Assembly (NCBI GenBank): GCA_012270795.1
Contig: JAAXHO010000107.1
Span: 44,528 to 86,078, forward strand
Origin: Candidatus Poribacteria bacterium
Lineage (GTDB): Bacteria; Poribacteria; WGA-4E; WGA-3G
DNA length: 41,551 nucleotides
Direction of reading: 5' to 3'
Shown: positions 2,696 through 14,289 of the stretch, piece by piece
Layout of the letters: each line of letters begins with the position of its first letter
Position numbering within the stretch: the stretch's first letter is position 1
Made by a program: the position numbers and the translations under genes
Notes under the pieces: generated by a model
What the model was told of the DNA's origin: nothing
What the model saw: only the letters and a program-made list of their open reading frames with translations
The model's database searches: none

Positions 2696-4718
2696 CTACA
2701 GCAATATCGTGCCGTCATCACTAATGCTTGCTAATTCTCCGCCATCAGGAGAAAAAGCAACTGAAGTAACACTGTCCAAATGTCCTATAAGAGTTGTTTT
2801 GTATTGTCCAGTCTGCGCGTGCCACAAACTAATAGTATTATCTTGATTTCCACATGCGAGCATTTTATTATCCGGTGAATAAGCAAAAGAAGTAATTTTT
2901 CCTGTAGGTATAGTAATTTTTTGTTGAAGCGTTCCAGTTTCCGTATTCCAAAGATAGATAAGATTATTGGAACTTGCTCCTCCGACGATTTTCCCATCAG
3001 GAGAAAATGTAATGGAATTAATTCCAAAAATTTACCTTGTATAATACCTTCTCTGATAAACTGTAAATTAATTGTTCTGATAAGTTGTTGGTTTTGAGCG
3101 TTCAATATGTTAATCTCTGAATACATGCCATTTTCTTGAATGTGTCCATCGGTTGTGCCGCTAATCAGAATGCTACTATCCGAGGAATAACCCAAGAAGG
3201 TGGATGGATAATTATGGTCTATGAACGTTTGTTGATGACCTTCGCGATTCAGATCCCAGAAATGAATATTGCCACTGCTACTACCGCCAACAAGTGTTTT
3301 CCCATCTATAGAATATGCTATAATGCGGTGATAGTGTGTGGATTGCTATTTTGATTATTCTCATCAGGGGGTTGTGCTAAATCATCTGTTACCTTGAATT
3401 TCAGTTTGAGCTGGCCTCTATCCGTTTCCCATAGGCGTATGGTATTGTCCTTATTTGCTATTGCGAGTGTGGTTCCATCTGGGGAATAAGCGAGGGGAGT
3501 TGCCAACCCTTTGATAATATTCAATCTGTTATGTCTATGAGATAATTTCGGTGTTTGTTTGTCATTCAGACTTTCAATAAGTTCCAGTTTGTGTTGGAAT
3601 GTTTGAGTATCCCACACAGATACGTCACCTCTTTTATTCATACATGCAAGAGTTTTGCCGTTTGGTGAAAATGTTAGGAAGTTGAAACTATGTATATGTC
3701 CTGTAAATATGCGTTTTGGCAATTGACTCACTGCACCCCACAGACGAATATTTCCATCTAAACTTGCAGTGGCGAAAATGTTACCATCTGGAGAATATAC
3801 AACTGATGTCACCTTGTCTGTATGTCCTTCAAGGGTTCGTTTGTGTTCACCTGTTGTTTTATCCCACAAGTTTAATTTACCGTCATGACTTCCAGTAACA
3901 ATAGTGCTATTATTTTTTGAAAATGCTAACGAATAGATAGAACTTTTAGATTGTATAGCAAATGATTTTAATTTTCTATTATCTATGTTCCAGATACGCA
4001 TCTTACCGTCACACCAACTTGCCAACGTCTTTCCATCCGCAGAGAATGCAACAGACATCATATAATCCAAGTATTCCTTAGGGGAACCATGGCGTTTGTG
4101 TGCGTTAAGCATCTCTATTTTTTGTTGTTTTAGAGTATCCCACACGTGTAAGTTGCCTTTTTTGCTACTACCTATAAGAGTATTACCATCTGGAGAATAC
4201 ACAACTGAAGTGATTTCAGTAAACACATTCTTATACAGTTTCTGGTGTTGCCAGTTTTTAACATCCCATGTATAGATTCCATCATCCCCTCCACTTGCAA
4301 GCGTTTTGCCATCCGGTGAATACACGACAGAATTAACTGCTCCTTTATGTCCTTGAAGTGTTTTTATGTGTTTTAGATTTTCCATATCCCATAGTCGGAT
4401 TGTCCAATCAAGGCTTCCACTTGCAAGCGTTTTGCCGTCAGGAGAATATTCGATTGAGGTAACCAATTCTGTATGTCCACTAAGAAGTGCTTCTTCAGTG
4501 CCAGTTTGTACGTTATATAGCCAGATGCCGATAGAGGTTGCGACAGCGAGTTGGTTTCCATCAGGAGAAAACGTCATGTCCGTAATCCATCCTTTACCAA
4601 GACGTGCGTTGACACCTTCGGGTAAACCCCATTGGTTGTAGTCCTGTGTTATACCGTTTTGGTTAAGTATAAGAAAAAATATTAGCAGGCTTAGTATGGT
4701 CATAAATGGCTTTTTCAT
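2696..4718 (-). pseudogene. Secreted WD40 repeat protein, first tandem copy, with frameshifts and a nonsense codon
   Basis: The start chosen is the ATG at 4718: GAGGAG lies about 8 nt upstream and the protein opens with a signal peptide (MKKPFMTILSLLIFFLIL). An upstream extension to 4871 only translates a hairpin repeat. The mature part begins QWGLPEGVNARLGKG and continues as many WD40 blades. An uninterrupted frame runs to 3318. WD40 coding then continues in other frames: a shift near 3325-3345 in a CACACA run, another near 3026-3033 in an A5T3 tract, and finally a TAG at 2696-2698 where the blade motif ILLWD needs TGG (Trp). With three lesions the 3' end is not translated as one chain. The 3318-4718 part could still make a truncated secreted propeller protein. 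Confidence 0.75.
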
Positions 4719-4803
4719 CTTATGACTCCTCGTGGAAAATACAATTTTTGGGACTGCATCTAAATTATAGTGAAATCTAAAATTACTATTACATTGCGGT
4801 AGG

Positions 4804-4866
4804 TTGCGGTTTCCTAACCAATGCAGAATACGCGTGTGGTATTCTGCATTGGTTAGGAAACCGCAA
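4804..4866. repeat. Long perfect hairpin, 27-bp arms with 9-nt loop
   Basis: The arms 4804-4830 and 4840-4866 are perfect reverse complements (TTGCGGTTTCCTAACCAATG... on the left) around the loop CGCGTGTGG. It lies about 85 bp upstream of the WD40 start at 4718. A second hairpin at 11130-11154 carries the reverse-complement loop CCACACGCG with different outer stem bases. This is therefore a dispersed element with a kept loop and diverged, still-paired stems. It could fold in the WD40 leader RNA. Confidence 0.75.
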
Positions 4867-4911
4867 ACCAACGGTATGAATGCCTTATGGCATTCCCCGC
4901 TTACCGGGGAG
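4865..4911 (+). repeat. CGGTATGAATGCC-family palindrome
   Basis: AAACCAACGGTATGAATGCC-TTAT-GGCATTCCCCG, followed by CTTACCGGGGAG, so CCCCG and CGGGG form a second small stem. It abuts the right arm of the 27-bp hairpin, making a composite of two repeat types. Confidence 0.6.
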
Positions 4912-4993
4912 TGTGCACATATTTTTAGATTTCACTATATATCTTAAGTTTAACAATGTTTGAAGTGTAAATCAAGGTATTTCAGTATTGGTC

Positions 4994-5084
4994 CCAGAAG
5001 CATTCAATTGTTGAAATGTACTCTTGAAGTAGGGTTTTCAAATTGTTGAGCGTGTGTAATTTATTGACAATTGAATGCTTCTGG
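4994..5084. repeat. 91-bp element with perfect 18-bp terminal inverted repeats
   Basis: CCAGAAGCATTCAATTGT at 4994-5011 is the exact reverse complement of 5067-5084. The interior is AT-rich and non-coding. The inner part of the end motif, ACAATTGAATGC, also occurs at 12025-12036 (single) and at both ends of the element at 14151-14275 (imperfect on the left). A small non-autonomous element family is the likely explanation. Confidence 0.65.
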
Positions 5085-5103
5085 TTGTGTATCTTGTCCC
5101 GAA

Positions 5104-5640
5104 CATGGAATTTTTTAGTTGTTTTTTTTTGGGTTTTTGACTTTTTTCATAAGTGTTCTCGATCCCGTAGTGGTATAGATTTATGAAGGTTTTATGAATT
5201 TACGAAATTTTGAAAAAAACAACTAAATGGGTTTTTTTATTGTTTTTTTGTAGTGTATTTTGTTTTGGATTTGTCAGCTGCTTTTATGTTATACCATTTC
5301 TATTTAATTTTCTCTCATTAGTGGTTGTTATACCAATTCAAATAAATATTGTCCCATTAAGGAATTCTACTGTTATTGCTGATTGGAGGTCCTCTCTTCG
5401 GTAGGAGCGACCTCCCGGTCGCGACCGGGAGGTCGCTCCTACCAGATATCAGCAACTAATGAGATATAATATATTAGAAATGGTATAATCCCAAAACGAC
5501 ATATTGCGAATTTTTTTTGATTTTTGGTGCGGTTTTTTGTTTGTATTTTTGGTTTTGCATAGCGTTCTTGTTGTGTGCTTATTTTTTGTATATATTATAA
5601 GTGATTTTTAGTGCATTTTGTAGTTTTTTGGGTGTCTGTT
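5104..5640. other. T-rich gene-free stretch
   Basis: The plus strand is strikingly T-rich with many T5-T11 runs, interrupted by the MITE-like element at 5289-5488. A frame from 5210 begins like a signal sequence, but its composition follows the T-tracts and it ends inside the repeat, so I do not call a gene. No promoter or RNA was recognised with confidence. Confidence 0.5.
5289..5488 (+). mobile_element. MITE-like element, copy 1, with 44-bp perfect palindrome
   Basis: The ends are TTATACCATTTCTA (5289-5302) and its exact reverse complement (5475-5488). Similarity continues inward (CTCATTAGT at the same spacing), giving imperfect terminal inverted repeats of about 34 bp. The centre (5400-5443) is a perfect 44-bp palindrome starting GGTAGGAGCGACCTCCCGG. 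No protein is encoded. A second, shorter copy of the interior lies inverted at 5796-5956. The TTATACC ends and lack of coding fit a MITE; I cannot see an unambiguous target-site duplication. Confidence 0.65.
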
Positions 5641-5795
5641 TATTGGGATTTCCAATATATATCCGATAGGTTTGGGGTAAGGGTGAATCATGCGTGATTC
5701 AGACAAAAAGGATGGCAAAAACTTTACACACCCTGTGACAATATTTACCTTGACACTTGAGACTGAACCTGTTATCATAACGCAAGAATAGAATC

Positions 5796-5956
5796 TAATA
5801 CCATTTCTAAAAAATAAGATGCCATTTGTCAAAATGTTCTGGTAGGAGCGACCTCCCGGTCGCGACCGGGAGGTCGCTCCTACCGAAGAGAGACCTCCAA
5901 CTAACGATAAAAGTGAAATTCCTTAATGGAACAATATTAATTTGAATTAGTATAAT
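5796..5956 (-). mobile_element. MITE-like element, copy 2, inverted and lacking the outer ~40 bp
   Basis: Read on the minus strand it matches copy 1 from ATTCAAAT-AATATTG and CCATTAAGGAATT through TTGGAGGTC, TCTCTTCGG and the 44-bp palindrome (5841-5884), ending TAGAAATGGTATTA. The palindrome is identical in both copies while flanking bases differ at many positions, so the palindrome is either young, selected, or gene-converted. The two copies face each other about 300 bp apart. Confidence 0.65.
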
Positions 5957-6010
5957 ACACCAAACACAAAAAATCGGGTCATCTGTGAATCAGACCAAGC
6001 GACTAAATTA

Positions 6011-6070
6011 AAATCAACAGTATGAATGCTCTATAGCATTCCCCGGGTATGAATGCTATAGAACATTCGC
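6011..6070 (+). repeat. CGGTATGAATGCC-family palindrome pair
   Basis: AAATCAACAGTATGAATGCT, then CTATAGCATTCCCCGGG, then a second, partly broken unit TATGAATGCTATAGAACATTC. It lies 55 bp upstream of the SixA-like gene and might sit in its leader. Confidence 0.55.
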
Positions 6071-6124
6071 TACCTACAAGGTGTGCGATGCTAATTTGAA
6101 GTTTATTGTGAGGTAATTGTCTGT

Positions 6125-6622
6125 ATGAAAAGCCTTCTCATACTTAGACATGTGAAATCCAGTTGGGATAATCCTGGCTTATCTGATTATGACCGACCGT
6201 TGAACAAACGTGGTAAGCGGGATGCGCCGCGCATGGGAAAACACATTCGGCAAGAAAAGCTTGTTCCTGACCGTATTCTCACGTCTTCGGCGAAGCGTGC
6301 AAGAAAAACTGCATCTAAGGTTGCAAAGGCATGTGGTTATAAAAGTAAAATCAAGCGTTTGGATAATTTTTACCATGCACCACCGAGTGTCTATATTGAA
6401 GAATTACAGGTGTTACGCAGTAAGTATCAACGCGTGATGGTTGTTGGACATAATCCGACAATGGAACAACTTGTGCGACATCTAACAGGACAGATTTTGC
6501 CGATGCCTACTGCTGCTCTTGCGCACATTGAACTACCAATTGAGAATTGGGACATGCTTGATTTCTCTACCAGAGGTAAACTGGTTAACCTATGGACACC
6601 CAAAACACTCTTCACAGATTGA
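6125..6622 (+). CDS. sixA: SixA-like phosphohistidine phosphatase (histidine phosphatase superfamily)
   Basis: A 165-residue protein with the branch-1 histidine phosphatase signature LRHVKSSW at residues 7-14, where His9 would be phosphorylated. R30-G-K-R follows a conserved DRPLN-x-RG motif typical of SixA, and a second catalytic His lies in GHNPTMEQL (His109). Members of this family remove phosphate from phosphohistidine in phosphorelay or phosphotransfer proteins. GAGG lies about 11 nt before the ATG, a loose ribosome site. The 3' end overlaps the start of the following secreted-protein gene by 31 nt, so the two are probably cotranscribed, although no functional link is evident. The substrate is not known. 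Confidence 0.88.
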   Translation: MKSLLILRHVKSSWDNPGLSDYDRPLNKRGKRDAPRMGKHIRQEKLVPDRILTSSAKRARKTASKVAKACGYKSKIKRLDNFYHAPPSVYIEELQVLRSKYQRVMVVGHNPTMEQLVRHLTGQILPMPTAALAHIELPIENWDMLDFSTRGKLVNLWTPKTLFTD

Positions 6623-7989
6623 GTTCTCTATCTGTTAGGTTCTTACTATTCCTCTTTTTTGGATTTTTCCTTCTTTTGCATCCCTTTGCTGCTTCTGAAA
6701 TTACTGTGGTTACATCTGCTAAAGATGGGCAATTCTTTCCATCAGTTGTGGAAGATGGCAAAGGGGGTGTTATTGTGGTTTGGGAAGATCACCGCACTGG
6801 AAAAGATTGGGATGTTTATGCCCAACGAATGGTGAAAAACAGAACCTTTTGGCAACCCAATGGTCTCTCATTATCACGTAAGGAAAGAAATCAGCGGCGT
6901 TTACGAACAGTCCGAAACGGTTCACATGCAATTGTTGCTTGGAACGATAGACGGCATGGAAGTAGTTGGGATATATATGCGCAAGCGGTGAATCTTGATG
7001 GGAAAGTGCTATGGGAAGTTGATGGAATACCTCTTTGTACAAATGCTGCCGACCAGTCTACACAAGCGATCTTGAGCGATGGTAAGGGGGGTGCGATTGT
7101 TGTGTGGGAGGATGAGCGTAGGAGTTCCGAATTCCAGGACCTTTATATGCAGCATATCAATCCGGAAGGGAAAGTGAGGTGGGAAAGTGACGGTATTCCC
7201 GTTTTTCCATCTGAATCACTGCAAAGTGATCCGATCCTAATTGCTGACGGACAAAACGGGTTTTATGTTGTGTGGTGGGATGTTGTGGGTTATGATGCGT
7301 GGCATATCATGGCATATCGGTTGAACTTTGATGGTGAACCGTTATGGGACGCGCCGTTGCTAATTAAACCTGCAGATGGCATGCAAGGTGAACCGCGTGT
7401 TATTTCTGATGGGGATGGTGGCATTATTGTTGTCTGGCAGATATATGAGAATTTCATCAACGATCAGCTCTATGGACAACGTATCACTGCTGATGGCAAG
7501 AAACTGTGGCAAGATGAAGGTGTACCCATCTGTACTGCTGATGGAATTCAAAAACACGCCACAATTGTGAATGATGGAGAACAAGGCATCATTGTTGTAT
7601 GGCGTGATGAACGCGATATTTTTGGTGACCTATATATGCAGGGTGTCCGTTCTGATGGCACATTAGCGTGGGCAAAGGATGGTATTCCACTTTGCACAGC
7701 AGGTGGACATCAAGATAAACCCTTCATCATCCGAACTGCAGCAGATCAGTTTTTTGTTGCCTGGTTAGATTTTAGAGGAGATTTCGGTGAGGAGAGTAAA
7801 GATGCAATCTACTGTCAGCAAATTGACATGCGGGGGAAACTCTTGTGGCACGAGGATGGTTTGCCGATTTCGACGAGTGAGGGACAGCATTCACCGCCTG
7901 TTGTTGTAGGTGTTGGTAATGGGGAGTGGGTTGTTGTATGGAGTAACAGTGAACGAGATAATGGAGATATATATCTGAAGTGGTTTTAG
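6592..7989 (+). CDS. Secreted repeat protein, probable beta-propeller
   Basis: 465 residues. The N-terminus has a basic start and a long hydrophobic segment (FLLFLFFGFFLLLHPFAAS), a signal peptide with likely cleavage after AAS near residue 35. The rest consists of seven or so repeats of about 50-60 residues with the pattern GG-IVVWxDxR-(DIYAQ)-G-xWxxDGxPLCTAxGxQ. The WxD/DxR and aromatic positions resemble beta-propeller blades; I do not recognise a named family with certainty. It is likely exported to the periplasm or cell surface. The start chosen is the ATG inside the sixA 3' end; a later TTG would also preserve the signal peptide. It converges with the TPR gene downstream, with only about 20 bp between stops. 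Confidence 0.8.
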   Translation: MDTQNTLHRLSSLSVRFLLFLFFGFFLLLHPFAASEITVVTSAKDGQFFPSVVEDGKGGVIVVWEDHRTGKDWDVYAQRMVKNRTFWQPNGLSLSRKERNQRRLRTVRNGSHAIVAWNDRRHGSSWDIYAQAVNLDGKVLWEVDGIPLCTNAADQSTQAILSDGKGGAIVVWEDERRSSEFQDLYMQHINPEGKVRWESDGIPVFPSESLQSDPILIADGQNGFYVVWWDVVGYDAWHIMAYRLNFDGEPLWDAPLLIKPADGMQGEPRVISDGDGGIIVVWQIYENFINDQLYGQRITADGKKLWQDEGVPICTADGIQKHATIVNDGEQGIIVVWRDERDIFGDLYMQGVRSDGTLAWAKDGIPLCTAGGHQDKPFIIRTAADQFFVAWLDFRGDFGEESKDAIYCQQIDMRGKLLWHEDGLPISTSEGQHSPPVVVGVGNGEWVVVWSNSERDNGDIYLKWF

Positions 7990-8010
7990 ACTTATTTTTT
8001 GGTCAAAACC

Positions 8011-8958
8011 TTATCTTTTCCACCAAGGTTTTTTATCCTGATATGAAGCCATTAGTTTTGAGATTATTTTGTCTTTTTTGTCTAATTTCAACACATTTTC
8101 ACATGCATCAATTATCTTCTGTTTGTCGGAATCTGCACCATTTTCTTGATATAAGTGATGGTATGTCTGTGCAATAGCAGTATAATATCCTATCCTATCA
8201 ATATTGTCGGGTACTTCCGCGGGTGGTTCACTAATAGTTGCAGCCGCCTCATGCCACGACTCAAGTGCAGCGTAGCAAATAACCATCTGATATAATGGAT
8301 ATTGATTGGATTTATCAAGCCAATACGCTTGTTCATAACATTTTATCGCTTCGGAGTGGGCAGAATTATTATTATGTAGTTGTGCAAGTGCGATATAAAA
8401 CGCGTGTAATCCAATATCTGCAATAGAGTATAGTTCAACTCCTGTATTGATAAGCCATTCCCTTTCTATAAGAAAATCAATTGCAGAATTCCGTTCTGGT
8501 TCAGTGATACTGATGTCTGTCAGTAGATGTTTTGCGACTGCAGCGTTTGGGAATATTTTTGTACGGCTTTTCATCAGTGGATATGCTTGTATTGGTTTAT
8601 CCATTGCTATGAGTTTGATGCCGGTTGCGATGCGAAAAAGTGATACAATTTGATCGCTGTTTTGGCGTGACATTTGGTCTGTAATTTGCTCTTGGTTCTG
8701 AGTGAAGTGTAGATTGAGATTGTCAACCGCATCTCTGATTTCTGTGTTTTCAGGATTTAGTTTGTGTGCTTGGGATAAGAACCTTTGTGCAGCGAAGAGT
8801 TCACCCCATTCTTGATAGATGTGTCCGAGTCTAAAATGTGCGGAGCCAAGTGTTGTTGGTTCGTTTTCGTAGCGGATGACATCTTCATAAGCTTGTATTG
8901 CTTCTGCTGTTTTCGCGTCGGATTCTAATTTTTTGGCTCGTTCAAGTAGGTTTGACAT
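8011..8958 (-). CDS. Tetratricopeptide-repeat protein
   Basis: 315 residues, no signal peptide or membrane segment. TPR-like helical pairs are visible at residues ~4-75 (AKTAEAIQAYEDVI; AHFRLGHIYQEWGELFAAQR) and ~195-235 (EAIKCYEQAYWLDKS). The middle is helical and less regular. TPR arrays bind partner proteins; there is no catalytic motif. The gene starts 50 bp after the holB stop on the same strand and is probably cotranscribed with it. No more specific function can be read. Confidence 0.8.
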   Translation of the reverse strand: MSNLLERAKKLESDAKTAEAIQAYEDVIRYENEPTTLGSAHFRLGHIYQEWGELFAAQRFLSQAHKLNPENTEIRDAVDNLNLHFTQNQEQITDQMSRQNSDQIVSLFRIATGIKLIAMDKPIQAYPLMKSRTKIFPNAAVAKHLLTDISITEPERNSAIDFLIEREWLINTGVELYSIADIGLHAFYIALAQLHNNNSAHSEAIKCYEQAYWLDKSNQYPLYQMVICYAALESWHEAAATISEPPAEVPDNIDRIGYYTAIAQTYHHLYQENGADSDKQKIIDACENVLKLDKKDKIISKLMASYQDKKPWWKR

Positions 8959-9008
8959 AGAATTATGGAGTATTAAATTCTTGAAAATGAATTAAATCAA
9001 AAAGTGAT

Positions 9009-9968
9009 TTATCTACCAATTATTAACTTCAAACACATGACCTCAATCGCAAGATATTTGTTGACATTTGTTTGTAACAGTGATTTTGTTTGAAAAATAG
9101 TTTTGATAGCGCGTTGGAGTCGGATTTGGGGGTAGGACGGTACATAAGTTCTTAGCGTATCAATTGCATTTGTGTGCGTAATCAATTCTTTCGGAGCATC
9201 TTGTTGAAGCAGTAAGAGATCGCGATACCACGTAATCAAATCATCTAAATTTTCTGGATTCTTCTCATATTGTTCAGCAAATCTAAAAGCTGCTAATGGG
9301 TCAGTTTCTTTTAGGATTTCTGGTACGGTCTCACTTTCGGTGATGTCTTTTTCTATTAGCGTTATTGCTTTTCCGACCACCCCGCGTGAGAGGATTGCAG
9401 CGTCTGAAGCTGTGTTAGTTTCAACAGAAAATCGTTCCACTAATGCTTTGGTTAGTTCTTCAGTTGGTAGTGTATTAAATGTGAGTATTTGGCATCGGGA
9501 ACGAATTGTCGGTAGCATAACTTTTAGGTTTTCGGTCAATAATATTAATGTTGATGCGGCTGGGGGTTCTTCAAGCGTTTTTAGAAGTGCATTCGCTGCG
9601 GCATCGTTCATTCGTTCGGTATTTGTTAGGATGTATATTTTTCTTGTGCCTTCAAGGGGTTGGTAGATTATTTCTCTTTGCAGTTCACGTATTTGGTCTA
9701 TTTTCATCTGTGTGCCGTCAGGTCGTATGATGCGTAGGTCTGGGTGGTTGCTATTTTTTATTTTTCGGCACGCGCGGCACTCCCCACATGGAATTGAACC
9801 TTCCACAGTTCCATCACATAGAATCAAAGTGGCAAAATATAGGGCCACGGTCTCTTTGCCGACCCCTTGTTGTCCAGTGAACAGGTATGCCCCCGCTACG
9901 CGTTCTGAAGTGACAGCGTTTTGAAGTTGCGTGATAATGTTCTGATGACCGATTATCGGATTATCCAT
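9009..9968 (-). CDS. holB: DNA polymerase III delta-prime subunit
   Basis: 319 residues, normal size for HolB, a clamp-loader subunit. An AAA+ P-loop GQQGVGKET lies at residues 32-40. A zinc module follows with Cys51, 61, 64 and 67 (CGECRAC), then NSNHPD. IYILTNTERM leads into NALLKTLEEPP, the conserved sensor region of clamp-loader subunits, and IRSRCQ is the SRC motif. The intact Walker A and SRC are commoner in DnaX-like subunits, but the lack of a C-terminal extension favours delta-prime. It precedes the TPR gene at 8958. Confidence 0.88.
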   Translation of the reverse strand: MDNPIIGHQNIITQLQNAVTSERVAGAYLFTGQQGVGKETVALYFATLILCDGTVEGSIPCGECRACRKIKNSNHPDLRIIRPDGTQMKIDQIRELQREIIYQPLEGTRKIYILTNTERMNDAAANALLKTLEEPPAASTLILLTENLKVMLPTIRSRCQILTFNTLPTEELTKALVERFSVETNTASDAAILSRGVVGKAITLIEKDITESETVPEILKETDPLAAFRFAEQYEKNPENLDDLITWYRDLLLLQQDAPKELITHTNAIDTLRTYVPSYPQIRLQRAIKTIFQTKSLLQTNVNKYLAIEVMCLKLIIGR

Positions 9969-10082
9969 TTAGATTAATATGACCTAAGTTGCTATATCTT
10001 AAGGAACACAAACTGTATGAAGCTTACGTTTGTGCTACAAAAAAGAGACATTTTCAATTAGATGCGGTATTACAACAGATTG

Positions 10083-10981
10083 TTATGTATCCAACATATT
10101 TATGAAAGTATCAAGACTTTGTACATTTGATGCCGCAATGTGGAGTTCTTCCAATCGTTGTAAATCCTCTATACTTTCAACTTTGGCAGACATGTTTCTG
10201 ACAGCATCTTCAGAAAATCTGCTTTCAAGTAATGCTAAAATGTGTCTAATTGTAGTGTTTCTTACCCCTTGTTCAATACCTTGTGCAATACCTTGTGCGA
10301 TGAATTTTTCACGTAGGAATTGGTAATATTTAGATTCTTGCATGTTTTTCTCCTGTATGAGTCTTTTGAAGAGTTCACCATCATGGACAATACTCCCGAA
10401 AAGAGATATAGCACAGAGCAAATCGCTTTGCATCTGTTGATCAGTTGAGACTGCAATTGCCGTATCAATACAGTTTTGAACCCACTGTTCTGTATCCATA
10501 CCTGCTTTAGGTTTCATAAGTGGCAGGAAAGGTAGCAATCCAGGGGTCGGCTTAGCCAAGATCGTTTCTCCATCTATCTGAGAAAGTCTGATCACCTTAT
10601 ATTGTAACTTATATTCATAACCTTGCCAACTATATTGGTGGAGTCCTGTGTCGTTTCTCCCCGCATTTGGGTGAAAGTAAATAACGTTAGAGTAGACAGG
10701 TAACTGATGTTCACCAACAAGTAACCGTGGTAAGCTGCGTTTCGTGCCCACATCGGTTTGCGTGTGCTATCATGTAACTGTAATTCAATATGTAAAATTG
10801 CTTCGCGATTATTTACACGAATACGTTTTGTGCTGTCGGTGCGTTGCCCAACGATTATTTGTTGTTCTGTATCAATGTTTTCGATCACTTCAACGTCTGT
10901 CACGCCGAGTACAAACTGTGAGATTTCTGTGGCATAATCTGTTAGAAGATTTTTCGCCATATTATCATATTCTTGTGTCAT
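10083..10981 (-). pseudogene. Rpn-family (PD-(D/E)XK) recombination-promoting nuclease/putative transposase, frameshifted
   Basis: Two overlapping frames form one protein of about 299 residues. The 5' part from 10981 contains the nuclease-like core (TDVEVIEN..., then EAILHIELQLHDS, fitting the E-x-Q core of Rpn enzymes, and MWARNAAYHGYLL). The 3' part continues EHQLPVYSNVIYFHPNAG and ends in the typical Rpn tail with repeated AQGIAQG and a helical C-terminus. The frame changes near 10714-10716 by apparent loss of one base between YHGYLL and EHQLPV. Rpn proteins promote RecA-independent recombination in E. coli and are often called transposase-like. A gene of this kind may accompany the surrounding repeats, but no link is shown. 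Confidence 0.75.
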
Positions 10982-11095
10982 ATAAGTATTATATACTGAA
11001 AAGGTGAAATTTTCAAGATAAACAGAATTGAATCGGGGTTATTTATGGTAGATTATGGAATTAATTACACACTTAACAGGTAGGAGCGACATCCA

Positions 11096-11165
11096 AATCA
11101 ACGGTATAAATCATGGCGAATCATGTAGAATACCACACGCGTATTCTACCAAGCGCATTCCTCGG
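11096..11165. repeat. Degraded composite palindrome with conserved CCACACGCG loop
   Basis: AAATCAACGGTATAAATCAT, then the hairpin GTAGAATA-CCACACGCG-TATTCTAC, then CATTCCTCGGG. It combines the CGGTATGAATGCC repeat family with the 9-nt hairpin loop seen at 4831-4839 in opposite orientation. It is nested between AGGTAGGAGCGAC and GTCGTTCCTACCT, the outer bases of the 44-bp palindrome at 5400 and 5841. Confidence 0.6.
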
Positions 11166-11206
11166 GTCGTTCCTACCTTAAGAAACCTATGTTAGAATTT
11201 GCGCTC

Positions 11207-11266
11207 GGCTATTCTCGGTTTCTATAGGCTATTCTCGGTTTCTATAGGCTATTCTCGGTTTCTATA
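11207..11266. repeat. Three perfect tandem copies of a 20-bp unit
   Basis: The unit GGCTATTCTCGGTTTCTATA occurs at 11207-11226, 11227-11246 and 11247-11266 without mismatch. It covers the stop codon of the small secreted gene (stop at 11242). Because 20 is not a multiple of three, each gain or loss of a copy changes the reading frame of that gene's C-terminus. Confidence 0.9.
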
Positions 11267-11504
11267 TCTGAATCTTTGTTCAGGTAGACCCCAGGCCAAG
11301 ATGATACTTGCGTAAAACGAAACGATATTTCTCCTGATGAGTCTAAACCTGTGACAGTAACGAGAAAAGTAAGTTCATTATCATAAGTTGGTTCCCAATC
11401 ATTATACGTTGACTCATTTAGTGGTTCAATCTCAACATTCGTTGCTTGCACACGTGGAACAATTGTAAATAGAAATAGTAGAACATAAAAAAACATCTTT
11501 TCAT
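11242..11504 (-). pseudogene. Small secreted protein, frame-disrupted at both ends
   Basis: An ATG at 11504 has AAGGGA about 8 nt upstream, but its frame fails after MKRCFF because an A7 tract (11487-11493) is one base short. With eight bases the protein would read MKRCFFYVLLFLFTIVP, a good signal peptide. The frame that is open starts at the inner ATG (11496) and gives MFFYVLLFLFTIVPRVQA, still a plausible export signal. The mature part (EIEPLNESTYNDW... TFLVTVTGLDSSGEISF) looks like a short beta-sandwich, family not recognised. The frame ends inside the 20-bp tandem repeat, so the C-terminus is probably truncated. Confidence 0.55.
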
Positions 11505-11523
11505 AATGTAATTCCCTTTAAAT

Positions 11524-11964
11524 TTAAAGATCCTCAGCTTGCTTATCCTGTATTATAGATATAAGATAGGATAGATCAGCACTTTTTATCTCAGGTAAAC
11601 CTTGGTAGATGGCAATCGCTTTTTCATATTCTCCGATCTTGTAATAACACCTACCCAAAAGGTGTCCTTTTATACGACTATCCAGTAGCATTGCCTTTTG
11701 CATGTATTCAATGGCTAACTCTGTTTCTTTAAAATCGTAAAAGTAAAAATGAGCAATGAGTTCATGTCCACCAGCGTAATTCGGAAACTTGCTCAGCATC
11801 TCTTTGTATGCTGAAAGTTGTTGGCCTGATGGATGACAGTTTACCCAGATATTCATCGCCTCAACAGAGTCCGGATTCTCGCGTATAGCACGTTCAGCGT
11901 ATTCAATACCAATAGTCTCTGCAATAAGCGCACTTTTGGACAATAGATATTTTGCAGCAGTCAT
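11524..11964 (-). CDS. Small tetratricopeptide-repeat protein
   Basis: 146 residues from the ATG at 11964 (MTAAKYLLSKSALIAE). A GTG at 11988 would add eight residues that merely translate a repeat-like sequence (GATTCACGGAAGACACGGAA), so I prefer the ATG. TPR-like helices are at about residues 75-130 (ETELAIEYMQKAMLLDSRI; YKIGEYEKAIAIYQGLP). No signal peptide. It lies about 80 bp after hpt on the same strand. Function beyond protein binding cannot be read. Confidence 0.7.
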   Translation of the reverse strand: MTAAKYLLSKSALIAETIGIEYAERAIRENPDSVEAMNIWVNCHPSGQQLSAYKEMLSKFPNYAGGHELIAHFYFYDFKETELAIEYMQKAMLLDSRIKGHLLGRCYYKIGEYEKAIAIYQGLPEIKSADLSYLISIIQDKQAEDL

Positions 11965-14135: not shown

Positions 14136-14289
14136 CTTCAGCAACCAGAGACATTCAATTTTCGGGTTTCCTTGTTGTTGGATGGGTTTCTAACCCCGAT
14201 TTGAGATACAAAACAGCAGAAATCGGGTTAGAAACCCCTCCAACAATGATGTTTTGTGACAATTGAATGCCTATGCTTCAGCAACAGAG
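14136..14289. mobile_element. Small hairpin element flanked by direct repeats
   Basis: CTTCAGCAACCAGAG (14136-14150) and CTTCAGCAACAGAG (14276-14289) flank the element as a near-perfect direct repeat, like a target duplication. The ends show the ACATTCAATT / AATTGAATGC inverted motif also present at 4994-5084. The centre is a hairpin: TTGTTGGATGGGTTTCTAAC plus CCCGATTT at 14175-14202 pairs with 14220-14246 with one mismatch and one extra base. The right arm (14228-14247) is identical to bases 1-20 of the window. Confidence 0.6.

Follow-up and report, generated by a model that had tools for sequence, protein, structure and literature searches.

The window, by which we mean the whole stretch of 41,551 nucleotides analysed here, belongs to a draft genome of Candidatus Poribacteria (5.18 Mb, 298 contigs). 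At positions 4804 to 4866 it carries a perfect hairpin with a 28-bp stem and a 7-nt loop, GCGTGTG. The original prediction had described a perfect hairpin with arms of 27 bp, and this is correct for the palindrome proper, since the 28th pair, T4804-A4866, borrows the first base of an adjoining insert. Folded as single-stranded DNA, the sequence reaches −33.1 kcal/mol (z = −12.8), a value equalled by none of 200 shuffled sequences. The hairpin is a composite of four or more repeats nested in one another, and its loop is part of a small dispersed module. The outermost layer is a MITE-like element (E), which encloses a REP-type palindrome (B), which in turn encloses a hairpin module (C) and, within its right arm, a second module (D); all are listed in Table 1. 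When the flanks of this D copy are joined, they match the D-free locus L012 at 97% over 70 nt, ungapped. A further D-like copy stands at 6012 to 6068 of the window, with part of a second D hairpin immediately after it.

The loop had also been predicted to recur as its reverse complement at 11138 to 11146. The recurrence is there, on the minus strand, but at 11133 to 11141: for CGCGTGTGG, two occurrences are counted in the window where 0.04 would be expected. The second hairpin, GTAGAATAC-CACACGC-GTATTCTAC, spans 11125 to 11149. As anticipated, its outer stem (TAGAATAC/GTATTCTA) differs from that of the first hairpin (CAGAATAC/GTATTCTG), and both are paired. The second hairpin is nested too, with A, a REP other than B, enclosing a D-type module that encloses C. 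The folding of the whole second nest is modestly above chance (z = −1.6; 13 of 200 shuffles equal it). Beside it, at about 11205 to 11266, a 20-nt unit (GGCTATTCTCGGTTTCTATA) is repeated three times, head to tail.

Table 1. Layers of the two hairpin nests, with positions in the window.
Feature	Position	Strand	Basis
E, MITE-like element, outermost layer	4766-4939		Terminal inverted repeats TATAGTGAAATCTAAAA / TTTTAGATTTCACTATA
B, REP-type palindrome, left arm (GGTAGG + TTGCGGTTTCCTAACC)	4798-4819	+	Copies of GGTAGGTGCGGTTTCCTAACC genome-wide
TGCGGTTTCCTAACCAATG, 19 nt, reverse complement of 4847-4865	4805-4823	+	Comparison of L008 with L010
C, hairpin module of about 28 nt, CAGAATAC-GCGTGTG-GTATTCTGCATT	4824-4850	+	Copies of the 3' half word; host-site states
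Constant loop GCGTGTG (family GCGTNTG)	4832-4838	+	Recurrence and covariation data
B, right arm, first part (GGTTAGGAAACCGCA)	4851-4865	+	B copies; B REPs without C
D, 34-nt hairpin module AACCAACGGTAT-GAATGCC-TTAT-GGCATTC-CCCG, inside the B right arm	4866-4899	+	D-free L012
Remainder of the right arm of B (CTTACC), past the D insertion	4900-4905	+	Joined-flank match
A, REP-type palindrome GGTAGGAGCGAC ... GTCGTTCCTACC around the second hairpin	11079-11177		Copies of the A word
D-type module (AATCAACGGTATAAAT ... GCATTCCTCG) in A, expanded by inner hairpins	11096-11164	+	Sequence compared with D contexts
C, second copy (GGTAGAATAC-GCGTGTG-GTATTCTACAT), within the D-type hairpin	11123-11150	-	Sequence

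The outer layers are dispersed in the genome. The 15-nt end word of E is present in 32 copies genome-wide (at most one mismatch) against one for the reversed control, and E also occurs without an inner hairpin, as a 69-bp version at one place (L057/L058) and as another short form (L076/L077). B is a REP-type palindrome (GGTAGGTGCGGTTTCCTAACCGCACC) whose 21-nt word has 75 genome-wide copies (at most two mismatches; control, 0), and the A word occurs 93 times in 771 kb of sampled sequence. Both A and B open with GGTAGG, are palindromic and are almost always intergenic: only 1 of 93 A copies and 0 of 14 B copies in these 771 kb lay inside open reading frames (ORFs) of at least 150 aa. Exact hairpins (stem at least 12, loop at most 30) gave 53 calls in 413 kb, a total in which a few hairpins appear twice; Markov controls treated in the same way gave 3, 1 and 2. 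In the window, 5400 to 5443 and 5841 to 5884 carry the same perfect palindrome of 44 bp (GGTAGGAGCGACCTCCCGGTCG and its complement) and represent copies of REP family A.

The consensus of C, drawn by eye, is GG-NN-GAATRC-GCGTNTG-GYATTC-NN-CAT, about 28 nt. A genome-wide search for its word CGCGTGTGGTATTC with at most one mismatch returned 43 copies, of which 15 are exact, whereas the reversed control gave 2; thus further copies exist in the genome, above chance frequency. When the C core was compared side by side in 30 loci, its surroundings differed. Classed by eye, seven of these loci are symmetric hairpins in REP B, five are asymmetric in REP B, five carry a D inside the C loop next to REP B, seven lie in a D-type hairpin, four combine a D-type hairpin with a D inside the C loop, and two are of other kinds. 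C was also seen in the loop of another hairpin.

Three states of the host site could be aligned for REP B. When empty (L148 and L159), the site reads ...GG-TGC-GGTTAGGAAACCGCACC. In the asymmetric form, ...GG-CAGAATACGCGTGTGGTATTCTGCATT-GGTTAGG..., C stands in place of TGC (L008, L009 and L011). The symmetric form (L002 and L010) has 19 nt more (TGCGGTTTCCTAACCAATG), which in reverse complement match the opposite arm exactly. L008 and L010 have the flank CTTAAATTGACGCTTATGG in common and differ by the 19-nt stretch. The flanks of empty L148 resemble those of asymmetric L009 and L011, and the flanks of empty L159 resemble those of symmetric L002, whose joined form matches an empty site with 2 mismatches in 36. 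In the first hairpin of the window, the same 19 nt would be the arm copy that separates the symmetric from the asymmetric form, the copied arm being indistinguishable here from its template. The ends of C are less certain than those of D, since the best joins of 17 C copies have 2 to 9 mismatches in 36 after 225 boundary pairs were tried for each.

The long perfect arms look like the outcome of one arm having been copied onto the other. In genome G031 (L298) both long arms have changed together, with CCATATC/GATATGG for CCTAACC/GGTTAGG. Judged by sequence, such a concerted change and the three site states fit the pattern expected of quasipalindrome template switching, which has been reported in E. 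coli and yeast (PMC7202029, PMC3820800 and PMC8604942).

Module D has the consensus AATCAACGGTAT-GAATGCC-NNNN-GGCATTC-CCCG, 34 to 35 nt, and its word is present in 301 copies genome-wide (control, 0). Its habit is opposite to that of C: the stem is mostly constant and the loop variable (TATATA, CTTATG, CATTTAG and others), with a T-A to C-G change of the stem in relatives (GAACGCC/GGCGTTC). Where ORFs of at least 150 aa cover 77% of the 771 kb, 0 of 74 D copies and 2 of 14 C copies fell inside them. Some of the stretches compared had been picked for their richness in D, which biases copy numbers per kb. D was found in an F-type REP (two sites), in A (several), in B (one), in a TGTCTGAACCAGGATT repeat, in the C loop and in D itself, the last two being cases of self-nesting.

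With D taken out, the joined flanks of 76 of 85 distinct simple copies align across the junction to another place in the own sequence compared, a count that takes in D-in-D and tandem cases. D being a repeat in its own right, a shift control by gapped BLAST discriminates poorly: gapless alignments were obtained for 36/85 copies unshifted and for 27/84, 35/85, 18/85, 18/85, 8/84 and 7/84 at shifts of −15, −10, 10, 15, 25 and −25, respectively. An ungapped test was used instead. Ungapped 40-mers across the junction had a partner with at most two mismatches for 13/85 copies versus 0/85 at each of the shifts −12, −6, +6 and +12; with at most four mismatches, the values were 23/85 versus 1, 11, 4 and 0, respectively. 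For 52 of the 85 copies, the ∼1.1 Mb of own sequence compared held no partner at up to 8 mismatches in 40.

The junctions of D were read from 33 clean, non-self cases. The base to the left is A in 33/33, with C before it in 23; to the right, the first base is G (26) or C (7) and the second G (26), C (6) or T (1). These cases have neither a target-site duplication nor a fixed tetranucleotide, and the junction is mostly A|GG or A|CC. The constant A may be the first base of D itself, since empty F-REP and C-loop hosts lack it. A search of relatives for an orthologous pair of filled and empty sites, for D or C, returned none; longer gene matches in them are 65 to 79% identical. No close strain being among these relatives, the empty sites are paralogous host repeats. 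In G044, the best relative for the WD40 gene (L202), the element appears by eye to be absent upstream, which is weak evidence as the neighbouring gene differs (lepA-like by reading).

The central claim of the original prediction, a constant loop with a covarying stem, was borne out across the genome and the genus. Among 100 distinct 33-mers around CGCGTNTGG (33 from this genome and 67 from relatives, each sequence counted once), 535 of 800 cells over eight pairs were Watson-Crick, whereas shuffles gave a mean of 339.7 and a maximum of 390. After removal of duplicate arms, the count was 330 of 576 versus a shuffle mean of 198.5 and a maximum of 240. Seven distinct, fully paired 6-bp stems surround the loop, three of which are confined to one or two rows. 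Many of the rows from relatives come from loci fetched via GAAT...ATTC patterns (30 loci), D words or arm words, and those from this genome partly from loci fetched via the 3' arm CGCGTGTGGTATTC; pairs 1 and 6 to 8, as well as the stems CAAATG and CAGAAG, are free of those fetch patterns, and none of the 67 rows from relatives derives solely from an own-genome locus. Genome G030 is an exception, with many copies in which GAATCC faces GAATTC and one pair is broken. Several of these copies stand in head-to-tail arrays (L281-L286) with a period of 34 nt, in which two to four AATCAACGCC-GAATCCGCGTATGGAATTC-GTCC-like units lie in REP-like hosts. At a glance these arrays are CRISPR-like; they have no spacers.

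Covariation of this kind had been taken to point to a fold or recognition site under selection. The loop would then be the recognition element of a structural RNA or protein-binding site (for example a terminator, an mRNA stabiliser or a nucleoid-protein site) and the stem would covary around it. The presence of the loop pattern in all 18 genomes of the genus agrees with such a role, as do the covarying stem and a location mostly outside ORFs (12/14 C and 74/74 D copies). Nevertheless, copying can homogenise both arms without selection, as at L008/L010 and L298, and the modules are nested in other repeats, where D interrupts arms and loops. In palindromic repeats, covariation of the stem therefore does not on its own establish a selected fold, because arm copying also makes it; this process yields the same pattern and is visible at the loci. 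We consider selection on a structure improbable as the explanation, while retaining the covariation itself.

In our view the region is likely to be a nest of small dispersed, probably mobile non-coding hairpins, C and D, which were inserted without duplication and then subjected to arm copying. At the level of sequence comparison, the data demonstrate the nest, hosts free of D or of C, self-nesting, three site states and a constant loop with a covarying stem. C and D would insert into intergenic hosts (REP-type palindromes, a BIME-like repeat and a MITE) and into each other. In a first step, C would enter a REP hairpin and make it asymmetric; in a second, one arm would serve as the template for the other, most likely through quasipalindrome template switching, to give the perfect 28-bp stem. 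We infer this direction of change, the movement of the modules as single-stranded hairpins and the copying of arms during replication. On the evidence of the aligned copies, insertion followed by arm copying is the best account of the long stem. The finding is real, and it is more structured than the original account of it.

The mosaics could in principle have grown with no mobile element, by template switching during replication and microhomology joining of existing palindromes. Arm copying is apparently part of their history, and the 34-nt head-to-tail arrays of G030 would suit such a process. Yet a constant-ended unit of 34 to 35 nt is found in at least four host repeats, mostly with an A|GG or A|CC junction, and D also occurs in the C loop and in D, which is hard to obtain from random switching. 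Template switching alone is thus very unlikely.

If C and D are inserted hairpins, as we favour, a Y1 HUH transposase of the RAYT or IS200 type, acting in trans, may be their present or past mobiliser. The genome has four Y1_Tnp matches in three places (contigs C141, C168 and C186). The first place holds a RAYT by NCBIfam model NF047646 (90.9 bits; cut-off, 80), so that a gene for the REP-associated transposase named in the original prediction does exist, but it is flanked by family A and not by the hairpin at issue: seven A-REP words (GTAGGAGCGACC) lie within about 0.2 kb, and its 3.3-kb locus contains no B, C, D or E words. The RAYT gene (L053, 1465-1890) may be truncated or frameshifted, its best stretch ending at profile position 128 of 146. 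C168 encodes an IS200 transposase (69.9 bits; cut-off, 55). At this place (L051), several palindrome copies of the CCGCTCCAGCGGAGCGG type stand on either side of the IS200-type tnpA and possibly form a REP-like family of their own. The two matches on C186 look like fragments of a single IS200-like gene, and the fragment tested scored 44.9, under the cut-off. C186 is the only one of the three places with modules near, having an F REP between the gene pieces and a B REP and D about 520 to 570 bp beyond them.

Across the 84 genomes searched, the presence of a Y1_Tnp match was not associated with that of D: 47 genomes have both, 3 have D alone (G032, G042 and G076), 26 have Y1 alone and 8 have neither. 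Two genomes of the same genus that carry C and D, including G042 (94% complete), have no Y1_Tnp match. The Y1 enzyme is therefore a candidate mobiliser only, given a RAYT that lies beside another REP family and two C- and D-bearing genomes of the genus without Y1; its action in trans on C and D is possible and remains putative. TnpA_REP is reported to cleave next to GTAG hairpins, at CT or CA (PMC8266576). By analogy, the common left flank of D, CA, would fit such cutting, whereas its right end would not.

These genes bear on an alternative in which the hairpin is a REPIN, a doublet of REPs spread by a REP-associated tyrosine transposase (REPtron), with the loop as the linker of the doublet. 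The outer palindrome does open with GGTAGG, as GTAG-tagged REPs do, a RAYT gene exists with GTAGGAGCGACC words beside it, and A and B are nearly all outside ORFs. Against this, the loop and core are likewise present where the host has no B REP (the second hairpin and D-type hosts), B REPs without C exist, C and D lack an invariant unpaired GTAG, and the RAYT of this one genome is flanked by A, not by B, C or D. The REPIN model accounts for the outer layers but not for the common core, and we regard it as unlikely for the hairpin as a whole. The likeness to REPIN/BIME systems with RAYT (PMC3116915, PMC8266576 and PMC6006769) is confined to A and B, which are GGTAGG-headed, palindromic and intergenic, with RAYT beside A. 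C and D differ from the units described there in having no unpaired GTAG foot and in being inserted inside REPs: the flanks of C vary (GCAG, paired GTAG, GACG and GCCG), and the foot of D is GTAT.

The probable insertion of C and D without duplication invites comparison with other mobile hairpins. IS200/IS605 elements and their non-autonomous derivatives also have a hairpin, and their orientation-specific insertion beside a short target, with no target duplication, is a habit that C and D may share. In contrast to them, C and D have one hairpin rather than one per end, their target is about A|GG or A|CC, and the three Y1 places checked hold no tnpA linked to C or D. REP dimers or elements within longer palindromes are known from A. 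variabilis, T. roseum and H. neapolitanus (PMC3733652). In those GTAG- or CGTC-tagged palindromes, the tagged REP is the insert, whereas here the REP is the host and the untagged C and D are the inserts.

The closest kind of element would seem to be the small dispersed repeats (SDRs) of cyanobacteria. As Elhai et al. reportedly described in 2008, these are dispersed hairpins of 21 to 27 nt with compensatory stem changes, and they are said to be nested in themselves and in minitransposons. The Poribacteria units (C, ∼28 nt; D, 34 to 35 nt) are likewise many-copy, non-coding hairpins with compensatory changes and nesting. They differ from SDRs in being slightly longer, in belonging to another phylum and in having largely REP-type palindromes as hosts; moreover, one class (C) keeps the loop and varies the stem, and arm copying builds long perfect palindromes. 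A precise insertion of SDR5 within HIP1 is recorded in PMC4390886. Among the open-licence PMC articles listed by literature searches, none dealt with these Poribacteria repeats in its title or abstract opening.

The modules are widespread in the phylum. A 20-mer of loop plus arm matched Candidatus Poribacteria records only (16 stretches in five assemblies). The D hairpin was found in 50 of the 84 phylum genomes searched (control, 0), among them 18/18 of the same genus and 31/38 of genus g3. The loop-and-ends pattern GAATNNGCGTNNGNNATTC was present in 18/18 genomes of the own genus, with 916 copies summed versus 2 control matches, and in 28/38 of genus g3; 4 of the 28 remaining genomes had a single match each, resembling chance. 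For a reading of replication-strand bias in the one-contig genome G045, the GC skew over 20 sampled stretches was too weak, as it did not place the origin. A phage origin was rejected, the 186-base nest having no match in phage records and a 22-mer none in viral contigs. An ordinary structural RNA was likewise set aside for window positions 4600 to 11600, where every Rfam match stayed below its gathering score; the five weaker matches concerned four microRNA families and one snoRNA family.

If the reading as inserted, arm-copied hairpins is right, very small mobile hairpins are not peculiar to cyanobacteria, and Poribacteria offer a system with hundreds of copies and natural empty sites, in which three visible stages (empty, asymmetric and arm-copied) show long perfect palindromes being built. 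A bolder version, which we hold to be unlikely, is a hairpin-parasitic system whose enzyme reads only the loop CGCGTRTGG, on any stem, and adds hairpins into the loops or stems of other hairpins. Were it true, palindromes would grow fractally while host template switching rewrote the stem and kept the loop; mobility would be selected on loop and fold alone, in units of 28 to 34 nt that would be among the smallest mobile units, outside cyanobacteria.

Further repeats lie in the window. The stretch at about 5038 to 5261 is a piece of a dispersed repeat of roughly 150 to 300 bp, which, among the matches listed, recurs with 74 to 88% identity at more than 20 places of the own genome and also in G037, G039 and G038. 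At 14175 to 14246 and elsewhere, there are members of a family of long hairpins (TTGTTGGAGGGGTTTCTAACCCC) whose loop, ∼20 nt in length, is variable; the word of this family has 65 copies in the 771 kb.
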